Of a DNA stretch of 64,000 nucleotides, positions 51,055 through 57,887 are shown one piece after another. The notes under the pieces were generated by a model that was not told the DNA's origin, did no database searches, and saw only the letters and a program-made list of their open reading frames with translations. The stretch is from Pandoraea sputorum (GTDB lineage Bacteria > Pseudomonadota > Gammaproteobacteria > Burkholderiales > Burkholderiaceae), in NCBI RefSeq assembly GCF_000814845.2, contig NZ_CP010431.2, forward strand, positions 1,736,001 through 1,800,000, written 5' to 3'. Made by a program: the position numbers and the translations under genes. Numbering within the stretch: the stretch's first letter is position 1; each line of letters starts with the position of its first letter.

Positions 51055-52167
51055 TCAAGCCGGTTGCTGTTGCGTCGTGCAGTGAATGCCGCCACCGCCA
51101 CCGGCAATGCCATCGATATCGAGTTGCACGATCTCCCGTTTCGGGAAGAGATCGCGTAGCTTGTCCCGCGTGCTGTTGTCCGTCTGACGATCGCCGAACT
51201 GCGGGGCGATGACAGCGCCGTTGCACACGTAAAAGTTGACGTAACCGGCCGCAAATTCATCGGCCTCATAAGTGCCGCGAACGCTGTTCGGGCCGGGAAG
51301 CACAACCACTTGTAGTTTGCGCCCCGAGGCGTCCGTCGTCTGACGCAGAATATCGAGATGGCGCATCGTCACCGCGTGATCGTAAGACGACGTATCGTTA
51401 TCCAGGTGCGCAATCACAACACCGGGCCGTGCGAAGCGCGCGTAGAAATCGGTGTGCCCGTCGGTAATGTCCTTGCCCGCGATCCCCGGCAACCAGACGA
51501 TCCTGCGCAGCCCCAGAAGTCTCATCAGCTCAGCCTCGCACGCCGCCTTGCCGACCCCCGGATTGCGGTTCCGGTTGAGCACACAACTCTCCGTCATGAT
51601 GGCCGTACCGTCGCCGTCGACCTCGATGCCACCGCCCTCCAGCACCAGACGTGTGGCGAGCACTCGCGCCCCCGTTTTTTCGGCGACGAAAGCGGCAACT
51701 TCTGCATCGTCGTCGCAAGACTGCTTGCCACCCCAGCCATTGAAGTTGAAGTCGACGGCCGCCTTTGCACCGCTGCGGGAACGGACGAAAACGGGGCCGG
51801 TATCACGCATCCACAGATCGTCGATGGGCTGCACGATCAGGTTCACCTTGCTGCCGCACATGCGCTCGGCCACGTCGTAATCTTCTCCGCGAACCAGCAT
51901 ATTGACGCGCTCGAAGCTCCCGATGGCCTGCGCAATGCGTGCAAGCCCCTCACGCGCTCCGCGTTGCAGACGACGACCCCAAACGTCCTCGCTTGGCCCG
52001 AACGCCATCCATGTGGCGGCGTGACGCTCACCCTCGTCCGGCATGACCCACTCGGCACCGCTGGCGGCACTCGCGTGGCGCATCAGACCGACGCCAAACG
52101 CCCCGGCCAGCATCGCGGCGCCGGACGTCAGTAATCCCTGCTTCATGAAACCTCGCCGTGTCGGCAT
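51055..52167 (-). CDS. Agmatine deiminase/peptidyl-arginine deiminase family, Tat-exported
   Basis: 370 aa. Guanidino-group hydrolase (PAD_porph): WMRDTGPVFV (D122), DGHTDFYARF (H238) and the nucleophile C363 in GGGGGIHCTTQQQPA. It converts agmatine to N-carbamoylputrescine, or acts on related guanidines. The N-terminus is a twin-arginine signal: TRRGFMKQ (R4, R5), then LLTSGAAMLAGAFGVGLM, so the enzyme should act in the periplasm, unlike the cytoplasmic AguA. Divergent from a LysR gene, with 163 bases between starts. No partner N-carbamoylputrescine amidase is nearby. Confidence 0.9.
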   Translation of the reverse strand: MPTRRGFMKQGLLTSGAAMLAGAFGVGLMRHASAASGAEWVMPDEGERHAATWMAFGPSEDVWGRRLQRGAREGLARIAQAIGSFERVNMLVRGEDYDVAERMCGSKVNLIVQPIDDLWMRDTGPVFVRSRSGAKAAVDFNFNGWGGKQSCDDDAEVAAFVAEKTGARVLATRLVLEGGGIEVDGDGTAIMTESCVLNRNRNPGVGKAACEAELMRLLGLRRIVWLPGIAGKDITDGHTDFYARFARPGVVIAHLDNDTSSYDHAVTMRHLDILRQTTDASGRKLQVVVLPGPNSVRGTYEADEFAAGYVNFYVCNGAVIAPQFGDRQTDNSTRDKLRDLFPKREIVQLDIDGIAGGGGGIHCTTQQQPA

Positions 52168-52274
52168 TTCCCAATTCTCTTGATGATGATTCGCACGATT
52201 TCGCCATCGGGTGACCGCGGGTGCGTCGGCGTGTCAGGCAGTGCACGCAGTTTGAGGTGCATTACCGATAAAGA

Positions 52275-52289
52275 AAAACGAGATGTTTT
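52275..52289. promoter_or_regulatory. LysR-box-like dyad between the agmatine deiminase and LysR genes
   Basis: AAAAC-GAGAT-GTTTT is a perfect 15-base dyad in an AT-rich stretch (roughly 52265-52325) of the divergent region. Its arm length and A/T ends fit the loose LysR-type T-N11-A pattern. Confidence 0.4.
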
Positions 52290-52330
52290 GCTACTATTAA
52301 TCAACTTTTCTCATATCTTGCGAGGATTCG

Positions 52331-53275
52331 ATGAATCGCCAGCGAATTCCGTCACTCAAGTTGCTCATGGGTTTCGAGGCGGCGGCGCGTCACGGAAATT
52401 TCTCGCGTGCGGCAGACGAACTGCATGTCAGCCAGTCTGCGATCAGCCATCAGGTGCAGCAGTTGGAGGAGGAGGTGGGGCAGCCGCTGTTCCGGCGGGT
52501 CGGACGCGGCGTCGAATTGACCGTTGCTGGCGAGGTATTGCAGCGCACCGTGCAACGCTCGATCGACACGCTGCGCAGCGGATTGGGCCGCATCTCGACC
52601 TATCTCGATCCCGGGCTGGTCGTGATTGCCGCCCCGGCAGAAGTGCTGCACGGCTGGCTGAGCCCGCGCGTCGACGACCTGCTCGCGCAAGTTCCATCGT
52701 TATGCCCGATGTTGTCGACGGATGAATCCGCGCGTTTCATCGACGAGACCGACATCGATATCGTGATCGGTGACCGGCCGCTGCAGCAGGCGGGACTGCT
52801 GGAGATGCCGCTGTTGCGAGACGAGTGGGTGATTGTCGCCAGCGAGGCATTGGCAGAGCAGTTGTCCGGCAGCCCGCCTGAGAAGCACGCAGAGATGACA
52901 TCGCTGATCTGTCTTGAGGAGAGCTTCACGCGCGACGCCACGGCTTCGCTGTTCCGCAATCAGCTGGCCGCCTTTCATAAGCACGCGATTTACGACGACG
53001 AGCGCCTGCTGCTCGACGCCGCACTGCGTGGTCGTGGCGTCGCCTGCGTATCGCGTCTGGTCGCGGACGAATGTCTGCGGCAGGGGCGCTTGCGCATACT
53101 TGCCGGTTATCCGAAGATCGCGGGGCATACGTGGTGGATTTCGCGTGTCGCCGGGGCGACGCGCTCGCCGGTCGTGACGCAAGTGTTCGACTGGCTTGTT
53201 GCGACGGCTGAACGGATGAGCAATATGAACGATGTGAACGACACGAGCGACGCGCACGGATCGCACTCGCCGTGA
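52331..53275 (+). CDS. LysR-family transcriptional regulator (GcvA-like)
   Basis: 314 aa. The N-terminal winged helix-turn-helix reads LLMGFEAAARHGNFSRAADELHVSQSAISHQ; the PSLK start and SAISHQVQQLEEE are typical of the GcvA/AmpR branch. A substrate-binding domain follows. GAGG lies upstream of the ATG. Its divergent position makes the Tat-exported agmatine deiminase its likely target, a standard LysR arrangement. The effector is unknown. The Asn/Asp-rich C-terminal tail is not conserved. Confidence 0.9.
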   Translation: MNRQRIPSLKLLMGFEAAARHGNFSRAADELHVSQSAISHQVQQLEEEVGQPLFRRVGRGVELTVAGEVLQRTVQRSIDTLRSGLGRISTYLDPGLVVIAAPAEVLHGWLSPRVDDLLAQVPSLCPMLSTDESARFIDETDIDIVIGDRPLQQAGLLEMPLLRDEWVIVASEALAEQLSGSPPEKHAEMTSLICLEESFTRDATASLFRNQLAAFHKHAIYDDERLLLDAALRGRGVACVSRLVADECLRQGRLRILAGYPKIAGHTWWISRVAGATRSPVVTQVFDWLVATAERMSNMNDVNDTSDAHGSHSP

Positions 53276-53422
53276 GACATTGTTGTCATCGAGGCAACAC
53301 AATAGTCCCCGCCTGGGGGCTTCTGACGTTACTCGCATGGACCTACGATGGAGATGTTGTTCACGTATGCGTAAATCCCGTCAACGGATGACGGGGCGCG
53401 CCAACCCAATGAGGAAGTCACC

Positions 53423-53902
53423 ATGAGCCAACGTCTGAACGCCTTTGCCCAATCCCCGGAACTCTTCAAGAAGTTCGTCGAATTCGGCATGCTGCTCAAG
53501 TCGAGCGCCATCGAGTCGTCGATCCTGAGCCTTGTTGAAATCCGTGCCTCGCAAATCAACGGGTGCGGCTTCTGCCTCGACATGCACGTCAAGGAAGCGA
53601 AGATCCGCGGCGAGGGCGAACTGCGTCTGCATCACGTCGCGATCTGGCGCGAATCGACCTTGTTCTCGGCACGCGAGCGTGCCTGTCTCGCCTGGACCGA
53701 AGCGCTCACCACGCTCGGCGCGCACGGTGTGTCCGACGAAATCTACGAACGAGTGCGCGGCGAACTGTCGGAGAAGGAAATCTCGGACCTCAGTTTCGCC
53801 ATCATGGCCATCAACGGCTGGAATCGCCTCAACGTGGGCTTCCGCACCGTTCCCGGCTCGGCCGACAAGGCTTACGGGCTGGACAAGGCCAACTTCAGCT
53901 GA
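53423..53902 (+). CDS. Carboxymuconolactone decarboxylase/AhpD-like protein
   Basis: 159 aa. The AhpD redox motif is complete: E39, C48 and C51 in NGCGFCLDMH, and H55, so a disulfide-type peroxidase or alkylhydroperoxidase activity is more likely than lactone decarboxylation. GAGGAA precedes the ATG. Genes of this class are the usual genomic partners of ECF41 sigma factors, and one lies 1.9 kb away (55752-56660). A CCCCCTC/GAGGGGG stem (53931-53950) without a T-run follows. Confidence 0.9.
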   Translation: MSQRLNAFAQSPELFKKFVEFGMLLKSSAIESSILSLVEIRASQINGCGFCLDMHVKEAKIRGEGELRLHHVAIWRESTLFSARERACLAWTEALTTLGAHGVSDEIYERVRGELSEKEISDLSFAIMAINGWNRLNVGFRTVPGSADKAYGLDKANFS

Positions 53903-53989
53903 GCGGTCATTTGTGGTCGTCCCCCTCAAAGTCCAATGCACGAGAGGGGGCGGCCGTCGTGCGTACGCCCGTCGAATATCCGCACCTGC

Positions 53990-55006
53990 CTATGCGGCGT
54001 GCGCCTGATTCACCTGCAGGTCCTCGTGCAAGACATGCAGGTCCATCGCGCGGATCTGCTCCGTCATGTAGTCGATAAATACGCGAATGCGCGCTGGCAA
54101 ATGTTGTCGGCTCAGAAAACACACGAAGTGACCCCGGTCCTCCGGCGCATATTGCGGCAAGCAGGCAACGAGACGGCCGTTGCGCAGGTGATCGCCCACC
54201 TGGTAGGCGGCCATTTGCGCGATGCCCTGAGCGTCGAGCACCGATTGCAGCACGAGGTCTTCGTCGTTGAAGGTCAGCATGGCATTCGGCAAAACCTTGC
54301 GCGACCGCCCGTCGACCCTGAACTCCCATTCCGACACCCGACCCGACGCCAGGCGGAAATTCACCCCCCGGTGATCGGCGATCTCGTCGACGTTCTGCGG
54401 AAGCCCGTGTTTCGCCGCATAGTCGGCAGACGCACACAGCACCATCTGCATCGGGATGACCTTCCTCGCGATGACCCGGCTGTCTTCCATCCGGCCGTTA
54501 CGAAACGACACGTCGATACCATCGGTGGTGAAGTCGGTCGGGCTGTCATCGAGTACCAGTTCGATGGAGATGTTCGGATTGGCTTCGCGAAATCCGCCCA
54601 GCAGCGGCGCCAGAATCTTGCGTCCGAAGTCCACGGTCGAGCACACGCGCAGTTGTCCCGAAGGCGGACCTTCTCGCAACTCGCGCATGTCGTCCATCGC
54701 CTGCACGATCCGCTGTACACCCGGATGACACTGCTCGTAGAAGCGCTTGCCTTCGGCGCTGAGCGACGTGTTGCGCGTCGTGCGGACAAAGAGGCGCGTG
54801 CCGAGCTGGTCCTCGAGCTTCTGCACACTGCGACTGACCGCCGAGCGGCCGATGCCCAGCCGGTCGCCCGCCTTGGCAAAGTTGCCTTCGGCCACCACGG
54901 CGATGAACGCCACGACGCCCGCATAACTTGTCGCGAAACTGTCGGCCAGCGAGTCTGCCCGCTTGGGACTCTGGGAGATCGAGAGTGCTGATGAATGTGT
55001 CGACAT
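53990..55006 (-). CDS. LysR-family transcriptional regulator
   Basis: 338 aa. DNA-binding domain FIAVVAEGNFAKAGDRLGIGRSAVSRSVQKLE, then RTTRNTSLSAEGKRFYEQC, the pattern of the CrgA/AaeR-like branch, and an effector domain. ATG 55006 is preferred to the upstream GTG 55012. Immediately upstream (55043-55069, minus) is an exact match to the ECF41 promoter as I recall it, so the ECF41 sigma factor nearby may drive this regulator. Convergent with the AhpD-like gene. Confidence 0.9.
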   Translation of the reverse strand: MSTHSSALSISQSPKRADSLADSFATSYAGVVAFIAVVAEGNFAKAGDRLGIGRSAVSRSVQKLEDQLGTRLFVRTTRNTSLSAEGKRFYEQCHPGVQRIVQAMDDMRELREGPPSGQLRVCSTVDFGRKILAPLLGGFREANPNISIELVLDDSPTDFTTDGIDVSFRNGRMEDSRVIARKVIPMQMVLCASADYAAKHGLPQNVDEIADHRGVNFRLASGRVSEWEFRVDGRSRKVLPNAMLTFNDEDLVLQSVLDAQGIAQMAAYQVGDHLRNGRLVACLPQYAPEDRGHFVCFLSRQHLPARIRVFIDYMTEQIRAMDLHVLHEDLQVNQAHAA

Positions 55007-55042
55007 GGTCACTGGGCCGCCGTTGGTTGTGCCTGCTGATAA

Positions 55043-55069
55043 GACGGCCCGGCGATACGTTCTGTGACA
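55043..55069 (-). promoter_or_regulatory. Exact ECF41-type promoter upstream of the LysR gene
   Basis: On the minus strand TGTCACA (55069-55063), then exactly 16 bases, then CGTC (55046-55043). This is the -35/-10 pair I recall as the published ECF41 promoter. The -10 ends 36 bases before the LysR start codon. An ECF41-type sigma gene lies 0.7 kb away. Confidence 0.6.
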
Positions 55070-55076
55070 TCGAATG

Positions 55077-55113
55077 CAAAAAAAGCTGACCTTCCAGGGG
55101 AAAGGCCAACTTT
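55077..55113 (-). terminator. Terminator of the cupin gene
   Basis: An 11-pair stem with two G-T pairs (55083-55093 with 55102-55112). On the minus strand it runs into seven T. It separates the cupin transcript from the LysR promoter just downstream. Confidence 0.75.
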
Positions 55114-55186
55114 GAAGCGCACCGGGCAGGGCGCACGGTGAAGCGTGGGCGGTTTGGGCAGCGTGCCGCGGTTCAGCGCACCGGGG

Positions 55187-55621
55187 TCATTTGACCGGAA
55201 TCAACGCCGGGGCGCCTTGTTGCTTGATGAGCGTGACCAGAAATCTGGCGGGTTTCGTCTTGCTGGCGTTGCGCCCGACCGTGTGAACGTCTTCGGGGCC
55301 TTCATAGAACGTCTGACCGGCCGTGAGCGTGACTTCCTTACCGCCTCTGACTTGCATGACGATACTGCCTTCGAGTACATACACGAAGCCATAGGCGTTG
55401 TGGCGATGCACCGGGTCCTGCGCACCGGGCGGGTAGTCGACGATCAGCATCAGCGCGTCTTTGCCGGGAATGTCCGGCAAGGCTTTTTCCATCAGTTCCG
55501 ACACGACGGGCTGCGGCGGCGCTGCGTTCGCGACCGGTCCAAGGAAGGCACCGGTGACGGCAAGCGTTAAGGCGCTTGTCGCCAGTTGGGTGCGCGTGGC
55601 GCGTTTCGTGATCTTCAACAT
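55187..55621 (-). CDS. Exported cupin-domain protein
   Basis: 144 aa with a Sec signal peptide (MLKITKRATRTQLATSALTL, cleavage expected near AANA-type VANAA). The cupin motif 1 is GAQDPVHRHNAYGFVYVLEG with the two metal histidines, and motif 2 is GPEDVHTVGRNAS. Periplasmic metal-binding beta-barrel; the enzymatic or sensing role is unknown. CGAGGACA precedes the ATG. It lies between the ECF41 sigma gene and the LysR gene on the same strand and may belong to the same functional group. Confidence 0.88.
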   Translation of the reverse strand: MLKITKRATRTQLATSALTLAVTGAFLGPVANAAPPQPVVSELMEKALPDIPGKDALMLIVDYPPGAQDPVHRHNAYGFVYVLEGSIVMQVRGGKEVTLTAGQTFYEGPEDVHTVGRNASKTKPARFLVTLIKQQGAPALIPVK

Positions 55622-55751
55622 GGCTTGTCCTCGGCAAGGGGGAATCCTTATCGTATGAGGGCATGCCGTGCGCCGGTAGCACCGCGCAGGGGATCGCCAT
55701 GTTGCCTGTTGCGCACCAAAGCCGGTGCGCTTGTTTCAGTGCATCAGTGCA

Positions 55752-56660
55752 CTACCGCTTCCCGATGGCGGCGGCGATGCGTTCGAGCTTGTCGGGATTG
55801 CGTTGCACCAAGATGCGCGTGAGACGTTCACCGTCGGTCTCAAACGACTGCGCGGACTCCAGCTCGCCGTCGATGAAGCGTAGCAGCGCCCATTGCCCGT
55901 TGATCTGGACCACGTCGGTACGCATCGAGTCACGAAACCGGAGCGTGCCCGCGTAGAAAAGTTGCGCCAGACGTTTGCCACCGACCAGACTGCGAAAGGC
56001 GTTGACCTTGCCGCCGCCGTCGCCCACGAGCTCGGCATCGTCGCTGAGCAGCGCGTGCAAGCCGTGGAAGTCGCTGCGTTGCATGGCGTCGGAAAATGCG
56101 AGCAGCAGACGGTGCAGGGTGGCGCGTGGCACTGCCTCGCGGGGCGTGCCGTCGCGCAGTTGCTGCCTTGCACGACGCACGAGTTGACGCACTGCCGCCG
56201 GTGTCTTGCCGAGTGTCTGCGCGATGTCCTCATAGTCGGCGTCGAACACGTCACGCATCAGGAAGGCTGCGCGGGCATCGGGCGAGAGGCGTTCGAGCAT
56301 GTACAGGAAAGCCACCGAGACATCGTCGGCCAACTCGTGTGCTTGCTCAGGCGTCGCCGGGGCGGACATCAGCATCGGCTCTGGCAGCCAGACGCCGGTG
56401 TAATGCTCACGCTCCGCCTTCGCGGCGCGTAGGCGGTCAATCGACAGACGCGTCGTGATGGTCACGAGCCACGCTTCCGGCGTCTCGATGGTCGCGCGCT
56501 CGGTGCCGTTCCAGCGTAGCCATGCTTCCTGCACCACGTCTTCGGCCTCGGCTACAGCGCCCAGCATGCGGTAGGCGATCGCGTACAGGCGGGGGCGATG
56601 GTGTTCGAAAACCAACAGCGGGTTGTGGTCGGAGCCAGCGTCGGAAGCAAGGGCGGTCAT
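55752..56660 (-). CDS. ECF41-type (SigJ-like) RNA polymerase sigma factor with fused SnoaL-like domain
   Basis: 302 aa. Sigma region 2 (RPRLYAIAYRMLGAVAEAED) and region 4 (DVFDADYEDIAQTLGKTPAAVRQLVRRA) are followed by a C-terminal SnoaL-like domain. The three marks of ECF41 are present: WLPEP (91-95) in the linker, DGGGK (214-218) and NPDKL (288-292). In this group the fused domain replaces an anti-sigma factor, and none is encoded nearby. ATG 56660 is chosen by family start; the frame is open to 56840. Partners of the class are COE genes such as the AhpD-like gene at 53423. Confidence 0.9.
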   Translation of the reverse strand: MTALASDAGSDHNPLLVFEHHRPRLYAIAYRMLGAVAEAEDVVQEAWLRWNGTERATIETPEAWLVTITTRLSIDRLRAAKAEREHYTGVWLPEPMLMSAPATPEQAHELADDVSVAFLYMLERLSPDARAAFLMRDVFDADYEDIAQTLGKTPAAVRQLVRRARQQLRDGTPREAVPRATLHRLLLAFSDAMQRSDFHGLHALLSDDAELVGDGGGKVNAFRSLVGGKRLAQLFYAGTLRFRDSMRTDVVQINGQWALLRFIDGELESAQSFETDGERLTRILVQRNPDKLERIAAAIGKR

Positions 56661-56970
56661 GAGGGAGAGGGAAAGTGCCAGTGGCAAGGCTTCGGGCGGT
56701 TCATTTTGCCCCACCGCATGTCCCTCGACAAGGACGCACGGTGTTGCCTGCGCGGCAACAATTCGGCTCGCGTCGGGAGCGACGTCGACATCTGCGCCGT
56801 GCCGTGTATCGCGTGTGCATTGGTGCATGAAGCACAACAACGCGCTTCCTCCCGGCTATCTACCGCCATCGTGGGACGGCACCTACGATGCAGTCGCTTC
56901 ACGGCATTTCATCCCCGCACATACCCCCCAGAATCCGGCCGACAACCGGCCGCGCTTGAGGAGATTCACG
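56661..56970. other. 310-base divergent intergenic region
   Basis: Lies between the ECF41 sigma gene (minus) and the broken metallo-hydrolase (plus). I see no gene, no hairpin terminator and no copy of the ECF41 promoter. A short direct repeat GTGCATTG/GTGCAT occurs around 56817-56829. Confidence 0.4.
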
Positions 56971-57887
56971 ATGACCGCGACAGACAACACTTTGTTCGCC
57001 AGCGAAGACAGACCCGTCGACCTGGTGCCCTCCCGTTACGCGCTGCGCATCGGCGACATCGAAGCGATGGTGATCAGCGACGGCGTGCTGCCGTTGCCGA
57101 CTGCGACGATGGCCACCAACGTTGCGCCGTCCGATCTGGCTGCGTGGCTCGACGACATGTGCATGCCGCCGGACGCCTTCGACTGGCCGCTCAATGTGAT
57201 GGCGGTTCGTAGTGGCAGCCAGACCATTCTCATCGACGCCGGGTTGGGTGGTCAGTTTCCAGGCTTCCCGCGTGCAGGCCTGTTCCCGCAGCGACTCCAG
57301 GCCGCTGGCATCTCGCTGGAATCGATCACGGACATTATCGTGACCCACATGCACATGGATCACGTGGGCGGCCTGCTGGTCCCCGAGGTCAGGTCGCGTC
57401 TGCGTCCGGACGTTCGTATCCACGTGTCGGAGACGGAAGTCGCTTTCTGGACGTCGCCCGATTTCTCGCACACCGTCATGCCTGCGCCGGTCCCGCCCGT
57501 ACTCCGTACGACGGCGACCGCTTTCTACAACGCGTATCGCGAGCAGTTGCAGACGTTCGAGCATTCGCGCGAGGTCGCGCCGGGTGTGACCGTTCGCATC
57601 ACGGGCGGCCATACGCCGGGGCACAGCGTGGTCGATCTCGTCTCGGGGATGAGCGGCTGACGTTCGCAGGGGACGCCATGTTCCCGGTCGGCTTCGATCA
57701 TCCCGAGTGGCAAAACGGCTTCGAACACGATCCCGAAGAGTCCACGCGTGTTCGCATTGGCCTCTTCGAAGAACTCGCGCAGAACCGTGGCCTGCTGGTG
57801 GCGGCCCACCTGCCGTTCCCTTCGCTCGGCCGCATTGCGCGCAATGGGGATGCCTACCGTTGGGTGCCTGTGATCTGGGATTTTTGA
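56971..57887 (+). pseudogene. Metallo-beta-lactamase-fold hydrolase, frameshifted
   Basis: The gene starts at ATG 56971 (GAGGA 8 bases upstream) and carries the zinc motif THMHMDHVGG (H126, H128, D130, H131) and GGHTPGHSVVDLVSG. It then stops at 57660. The rest of the family sequence, with FAGDAMFPVGFDHPEW and AAHLPFPSLGRIA, continues in another frame to 57887. Adding one G to the GGGG run at 57645-57648 restores a single 305-residue protein with the missing ligand aspartate and histidine. So it is a recent pseudogene, a phase-variable tract or a sequencing error. Related proteins include lactonases and other hydrolases. Confidence 0.85.

Follow-up and report, generated by a model that had tools for sequence, protein, structure and literature searches.

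Sigma factors of the ECF41 group belong to the extracytoplasmic function (ECF) family and form a large group whose signals and purpose are unclear, and their published targets are mainly neighbouring carboxymuconolactone decarboxylase/oxidoreductase/epimerase (COE) genes. In the main text of Wecke et al. (2012, PMC3426412), COE genes are the only detectable ECF41 targets besides the sigma genes transcribed with them, and the promoter consensus is given as TGTCACA-N16-CGTC with a spacer of 16±1. Here we describe an ECF41 module of Pandoraea sputorum that resembles the Bacillus licheniformis and Rhodobacter sphaeroides systems of that text in its sigma architecture, WLPEP mark, C-terminal extension, promoter and nearby carboxymuconolactone decarboxylase (CMD) or epimerase genes, and also in its cupin gene, a type of neighbour mentioned there four times. 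Unlike those systems, in which the promoter precedes COE or sigma genes, the module has it before a gene for a LysR-type regulator, and its COE genes have a LysR-type operator in front. The module lies in a 64,000-nucleotide stretch (NCBI RefSeq assembly GCF_000814845.2, contig NZ_CP010431.2, positions 1,736,001 to 1,800,000), hereafter the window, whose numbering is used throughout. The original prediction for this stretch had proposed a relay from sigma factor to LysR to target genes. As wiring, the proposal is supported by our comparison, in which the ECF41-type promoter stands before LysR in 54 of 55 related loci, against 1 of 229 regions before other module genes, and enzyme units begin with an operator and a -10 box at a fixed distance. 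Judged from these sequences, it is highly probable that the module is a two-tier transcription relay leading from the sigma factor through LysR to the CMD, cupin, epimerase and OsmC genes.

The sigma factor gene (55752..56660, minus strand) probably starts at the ATG at 56660, within a reading frame open to 56840. Its product combines sigma2 and sigma4 domains with a fused C-terminal extension, the family-level hallmark of ECF41, and the group is confirmed by matches to NCBIfam TIGR02957 (343 bits, cut-off 323) and to the SigJ model PRK09636 (285 bits, cut-off 271). The best match in the Protein Data Bank, and the closest solved structure by sequence, is the actinobacterial SigJ of Mycobacterium tuberculosis (5xe7, E 8.7e-43), for which we know of no LysR relay. 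All three motifs claimed for the protein, WLPEP, DGGGK and NPDKL, can be read in it, and DGGGK is a mark of ECF41 proteins. WLPEP is named as such a mark in the main text of PMC3426412, WLPEP and NPDKL both in the cited passages of PMC7730460, and those of PMC8999054 place SigJ in ECF41 and describe its extension as SnoaL-like. The regulator that follows (LysR2, 338 aa; 53990..55006, minus strand) contains HTH_1 and LysR_substrate domains, and its best NCBIfam model is YafC, at 186 bits against a cut-off of 470.

An exact TGTCACA-N16-CGTC lies at 55069-55043 on the minus strand, ending 36 bases ahead of the LysR2 ATG at 55006, so that the predicted motif near the sigma gene was recovered in promoter position. 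It is the sole exact match in the window when spacers of 14-18 are scanned. The rarity attached to it, about 0.03 chance occurrences per 64 kb, holds less well, as shuffled sequences gave 0.29 expected matches for the five spacings together, and the genome of the window (G000, 5.74 Mb) contains 4 exact copies per 5.7 Mb and none of the reversed pattern. With 4 exact copies per genome, motif statistics alone were rejected as proof. Because the single motif is weak evidence, loci were compared, and it is the comparison that carries the case.

Relatives were drawn from three sources: a search of genome contigs (80 loci kept among the matches listed, 16 of which entered the motif scan), 32 Pandoraea genomes (a sigma match in 12, one of which, in G030, is a distant classical ECF41) and 398 genomes sampled from the family (matches in 91, including 11 Pandoraea). 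Loci were retrieved for 11 Pandoraea and for 40 of 81 other matching places, mostly top-ranked. A module locus was defined by LysR2 on the same strand and at most 4 kb from the sigma gene, and the 55 loci chosen for that adjacency comprise 11 from Pandoraea (the window included), 9 from Achromobacter or Bordetella and 35 from other Burkholderiaceae; L138 is counted although its LysR2 matched only in part. Excluded were L007, whose contig ends behind the sigma gene, five loci with no LysR2 beside the sigma gene (L141, L150, L161, L162 and L163), L003 as a copy of the window and L097 as a copy of L005. P. commovens is the nearest named relative among the matches listed, with a sigma factor 97% identical. 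The ECF41 promoter was scored as present at 10 or more of its 11 fixed bases, and the operator described below at 11 or more of 14 arm bases, its boxes being picked on the dyad alone.

By this measure the promoter is kept ahead of LysR2 in 54/55 loci, in 42 of them as an exact match, a synteny that sustains the promoter call in the window. By gene, the single occurrence elsewhere falls before the sigma gene (1/55), with none before cupin (0/42), CMD (0/47), epimerase (0/39), OsmC (0/32) or a metallo-beta-lactamase (MBL)-fold gene (0/14); base-shuffled windows reach the threshold in 0.5% of 2200 cases. The spacer is 16 in 54 of 54 promoters yet has 51 distinct sequences, and mean conservation is 98% in motif columns against 56% in spacer columns. 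Given the published consensus, the sigma factor would be expected to recognize this promoter. Under the classical ECF41 wiring, CMD would be the direct target and the promoter before LysR2 incidental. COE genes are indeed the only detectable targets in the main text of PMC3426412, and the ECF41 loci without this LysR that we examined often carry the motif before sigma, CMD or both, but at 10 of 11 bases none of the CMD upstream regions of the module loci has it while nearly all LysR2 regions do, and we regard the classical wiring here as scarcely credible.

The same counts bear on the sigma gene itself. Before the window copy no promoter of the ECF41 type was found, the best match being 8/11, and the description of the sigma factor as self-regulated therefore applies only in the sense of its fused C-terminal domain. 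With the sigma gene lacking a promoter of its own type in 54 of the 55 loci (the exception is L155), the relay would be largely linear and would lack the positive feedback that many ECF systems have. A sigma70-like TTGTCG-N17-CAAAAT was read by eye before the gene (56703..56731, minus strand); it falls under the threshold of the consensus scan, and similar elements occur in most aligned relatives.

The enzyme genes are marked in another way. Alignment of the CMD upstream regions of 19 loci yielded the dyad ATTGTTGCC-N5-GGCAACA, and across the 55 loci this operator precedes CMD in 38/47, cupin in 15/42, epimerase in 25/39 and MBL-fold genes in 9/14, compared with OsmC in 2/32, sigma in 7/55 and LysR2 in 0/55; 1.2% of 2200 base-shuffled windows reach its threshold. 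Read against gene order, its distribution follows the transcription unit, marking the first gene of each and not a particular gene. In Pandoraea, Achromobacter and Bordetella, where the cupin gene lies behind sigma and the epimerase gene behind CMD, the operator is found at 13/14 cupin and 0/13 epimerase genes. In the other Burkholderiaceae, where cupin usually lies behind CMD and the epimerase gene starts a unit behind LysR2, the figures are 2/28 and 25/26, and the two operator-positive cupin genes (L128, L138) both lack a CMD gene in front. In Bordetella L013, the MBL-fold gene leads the CMD unit and carries the box, and CMD has none.

Downstream elements are fixed relative to these boxes. 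Among 87 boxes before CMD, cupin, epimerase or MBL-fold genes, TANNAT recurs at a single exact offset in 81 and CTWCYG, likewise at an offset of its own, in 75, with at most 2 boxes at any other scanned offset. The 6 boxes without TANNAT belong to four Pandoraea MBL-fold genes and two epimerase genes, and the four Pandoraea cases are the other reading of a palindrome between the sigma and MBL-fold genes, including 56742-56760 in the window, a 14/14 operator-like box with neither CTWCYG nor TANNAT. Measured from the start that the -10 box predicts, the centre of the box is about 66 bases upstream. LysR-type activators usually bind around -65/-66 at a dyad with T-N11-A; the dyad here contains T-N11-A and would lie near -65 when the start site is placed from the -10 box. 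In the window, the operator before CMD (TGTTGTCATCGAGGCAACA; 53281..53299, plus strand; 13/14 arm bases) is followed by a putative promoter (53320..53349) with CTTCTG at 53320-53325 and a TACGAT -10 box at 53344-53349, and the operator before cupin (TGGTGCGCAACAGGCAACA; 55700..55718, minus strand; 12/14 arm bases) by CTACCG at 55679-55674 and, at the fixed distance, a TACGAT -10 box at 55650..55655. A sigma70 scan returned no consensus promoter, and the -10 and CTWCYG elements derive from the aligned boxes.

We next consider which regulator would own the operator. LysR2 and the sigma factor occur in the identical 11 of 32 Pandoraea genomes (LysR2 scored at E<=1e-75). The strict form of the box, TGTTGYC-N5-GRCAACA, occurs 13 times in these 11 module genomes, with 11 of the 13 inside the module; G013, G017 and G021 lack it, and the G012 copy lies outside the module. 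The 21 Pandoraea genomes without the module have 4 in total, one of them at the CMD remnant left by a deletion of the module. Binding of the operator by LysR2 would agree with this distribution. Alternatively, the ECF41 promoter could drive a LysR-led operon, with the box belonging to another regulator and the sigma factor reaching the enzymes by read-through or not at all. This is favoured by the operator-like box that the window genome also carries next to a further LysR gene and an M20-peptidase-like gene, by the single strand shared by LysR2 and epimerase in the other Burkholderiaceae, and by further LysR genes near CMD in some loci, namely LysR1 (window and L099) and a 29%-identical LysR in L104. 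The box, however, is common to the loci and those LysR genes are not (as probed with LysR1 and LysR2 only), the enzyme operon of Pandoraea, Achromobacter and Bordetella is convergent and hence beyond read-through from LysR2, and the strict boxes concentrate in the module of the Pandoraea genomes that have it. We consider this alternative very unlikely. LysR1 was rejected as owner of the operator, as among the module loci it adjoins CMD only in the window and L099.

Under the proposed relay, the fused C-terminal domain would keep the ECF41 sigma factor inactive in the absence of a signal, and the sigma factor, once active, would bring RNA polymerase to the promoter of the neighbouring LysR gene. 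LysR2 would bind the inverted repeat TTGNTGCC-N5-GGCAACA, which contains T-N11-A and has its centre about 66 bases upstream of where ordinary sigma70-type promoters are expected to start, and would activate the enzyme units, that is, CMD with or without epimerase and OsmC, cupin and, in some species, an MBL-fold hydrolase. Promoters and operators hold conserved positions that shift with gene order, and the sigma and LysR2 genes occur together; the signals, and activation as opposed to repression, are what we infer. LysR regulators are able to repress, and the direction assigned here rests on layout. LysR2 might thus repress the enzyme units, with sigma activity shutting them down until an effector releases it. 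We think this unlikely: an operator about 66 bases before the predicted start, at promoters without a consensus -35 box, is generally the layout of LysR-activated promoters, and a repressor under a stress sigma factor would be less economical.

Several points weigh against the two-tier relay. It rests on sequence evidence. The 55 loci were preselected for LysR beside sigma, so that only the scan of 32 Pandoraea genomes tests co-occurrence. The same palindrome occurs at G000:C1:125360-125378 (L217), between another LysR-like gene and the M20-peptidase-like gene, both named from their translations; it is probably the site of another LysR regulator, and with a palindrome in such a position the box does not in itself prove that LysR2 binds. 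In the other Burkholderiaceae the operator is weaker (CMD 19/27), the partner elements are absent from the box at 56742-56760, and an epimerase gene on the LysR strand could also be expressed by read-through from the LysR promoter. The paralogous locus L165 has a LysR gene without the ECF41 promoter, L155 carries that promoter before sigma as well as before LysR2, and two further motif-like sites lie in L106. Finally, LysR2 is not the sole direct sigma target everywhere, as a bestrophin-like gene in L132, L143, L144 and L145 indicates.

This last gene, named from its translation as one for a bestrophin-like membrane protein, has an ECF41 promoter (10 or 11 of 11 bases) in those four of the seven module loci with a near-full-length copy, and it appears to be a second sigma target in these Burkholderiaceae. 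LysR2 as the only direct target everywhere was dropped for this reason. In the other three, all from Achromobacter (L006, L008 and L010), an operator-like box of 12-13/14 lies upstream instead, although the divergent neighbour is an equally plausible user of it. L101, L106 and L146 hold further motif-like sites with no clear gene. Within Pandoraea, where only exact sites were counted genome-wide, the 11 genomes with the module hold 32 motifs, 11 of them at LysR2, leaving 1.9 others per genome, and the 21 genomes without it hold 42, an average of 2.0. Module genomes thus exceed the others by about one site each, the LysR2 promoter, and the direct sigma regulon in Pandoraea apparently comprises about one promoter. 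G026 and G030, which belong to the 21, have a distant classical ECF41, and their single exact motif precedes its own CMD gene. In the window genome, an exact site at 1570763, about 170 bases before an mltD-like gene (by translation), was dropped as a candidate, being present in 2 of the 11 module genomes and also in G001, which lacks the module; the remaining two exact sites fall inside long open frames.

Records examined later came from a search of a plasmid collection, which returned 18, of which 5 were scored after the rules had been fixed (box at 10 or more of 14 with the -10 box in place). The module is present in Paraburkholderia phymatum STM815, at the plasmid locus L223, and in P. largidicola and Caballeronia insecticola, with the promoter before LysR2 at 10, 11 and 11 of 11 bases and the operator and -10 box before CMD, and also before epimerase in P. 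largidicola and before OsmC in C. insecticola. These three are probably close kin of genomes already counted, and the test on later records is accordingly not fully independent. The ECF41 loci of Ideonella and Variovorax have no LysR beside sigma; their motif lies before sigma and before CMD, respectively, and no such operator was found in them.

In a tree built from 129 length-filtered ECF41 proteins (L144 of the 55 was left out), a Burkholderiales clade of 60 rows with support 100 takes in 54 of the 55 LysR-wired rows. One of the six rows without LysR in this clade, L007, merely reflects a contig end. Early branches of the clade (L141, L161 and L150) and its neighbours (L016, L018 and L019) carry the motif ahead of sigma, and several of them also ahead of CMD. 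The wiring label needs three changes on the tree, and the branches starred for support force at least two; one gain of LysR wiring with later losses suits this pattern, several forks being weakly supported. It is possible, and we offer it tentatively, that this Burkholderiales lineage swapped direct enzyme control for LysR control and thereby became a two-input relay, in which the C-terminal domain would sense one signal and LysR2 a second, perhaps redox through four cysteines, before oxidative-stress-type enzymes are made; the Pandoraea sigma factor would then be left with about one promoter, and elsewhere genes such as the bestrophin-like gene would have moved between tiers. The four cysteines of LysR2 (93, 191, 282 and 296) are conserved in 96-100% of 54 module proteins and would suit redox sensing, the comparison being one within the module.

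Set beside known regulators, LysR2 is conventional in its HTH and substrate domains and in a predicted T-N11-A operator near -66, but unlike typical LysR-type regulators it is not divergent to its targets, has no operator at its own gene and lies behind a sigma-specific promoter. An ECF sigma factor above a LysR-type regulator has a parallel in Pseudomonas, where PvdS controls the LysR gene ptxR. The cited part of the review PMC10418997 does not state this link and describes PvdS as controlling about 80 genes and as paired with an anti-sigma factor, whereas LysR2 looks like the main or only direct target here. LysR has 0 occurrences in the main text of PMC3426412, and in the literature found to pair ECF41 with LysR, the sole mention of LysR is OxyR. 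An ECF41 factor with a LysR target was not found in the literature searched, which did not take in the main ECF classification papers. The parts are of known kinds, and their wiring differs from the published ECF41 picture, as the original prediction had proposed; that it is new, as also suggested there, is not certain. If true, a conserved LysR relay would represent a different control logic within the ECF41 group and a case of regulatory rewiring in which the enzymes stay together and control shifts from a sigma-specific promoter to an operator at the first gene of each unit. The ligand of LysR2 would offer a practical entry to the signal of the module.

The enzyme genes differ in their completeness. 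The AhpD-like COE partner (CMD, PF02627; 53423..53902, plus strand) is convergent to LysR2 as predicted and has a CxxC motif, which is followed by His after 2 or 3 residues in 47/47 module CMDs. A small cupin gene (55187..55621, minus strand; domain match), whose product has a signal-peptide-like N-terminus by sequence reading, does lie between sigma and LysR2, but it is not merely between them: it resembles a target of the second tier, preceded by an operator of its own and followed, ahead of the ECF41 promoter, by a terminator-like hairpin of 14 pairs with a T-run (55082..55113, minus strand). The terminator scan gave 5 such sites in 3.75 kb against 2.9 expected from shuffles. On the other side of sigma, an MBL-fold lactonase-like gene (56971..57887, plus strand; domain match) is frameshifted in the window, and its end, 57887, is also the end of the interval originally marked. 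The gene is intact in some relatives, L008 and L133 among them, and L098 has fragments only. An NmrA-like epimerase gene, situated between CMD and LysR2 in P. commovens and others, was not detected at 53903-53989 of the window; among the 11 Pandoraea loci, epimerase is kept in 4, OsmC in 2 and cupin in 5. The CxxC/His arrangement of CMD together with epimerase, OsmC, cupin and MBL-fold partners suggests detoxification of peroxides, electrophiles or lactones.

Some further loci illustrate how the neighbourhood varies. In L165, a second sigma copy of genome G090 has a LysR2 relative in front, and no enzyme partners were detected at that locus. L207 of G001 bears a deletion scar at 1501-1802, where the operator and a CMD remnant are followed by a chemotaxis-receptor gene, and sigma, cupin and LysR were not found there. 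A deiminase-like (peptidyl-arginine/agmatine) gene and the divergent LysR1 flank CMD at 51055-53275, among the module loci only in the window and L099. The bestrophin-like and MBL-fold genes of Achromobacter L006 are separated, at -2246 to -123 from sigma, by an alpha/beta hydrolase gene (by translation) with an operator-like box upstream.

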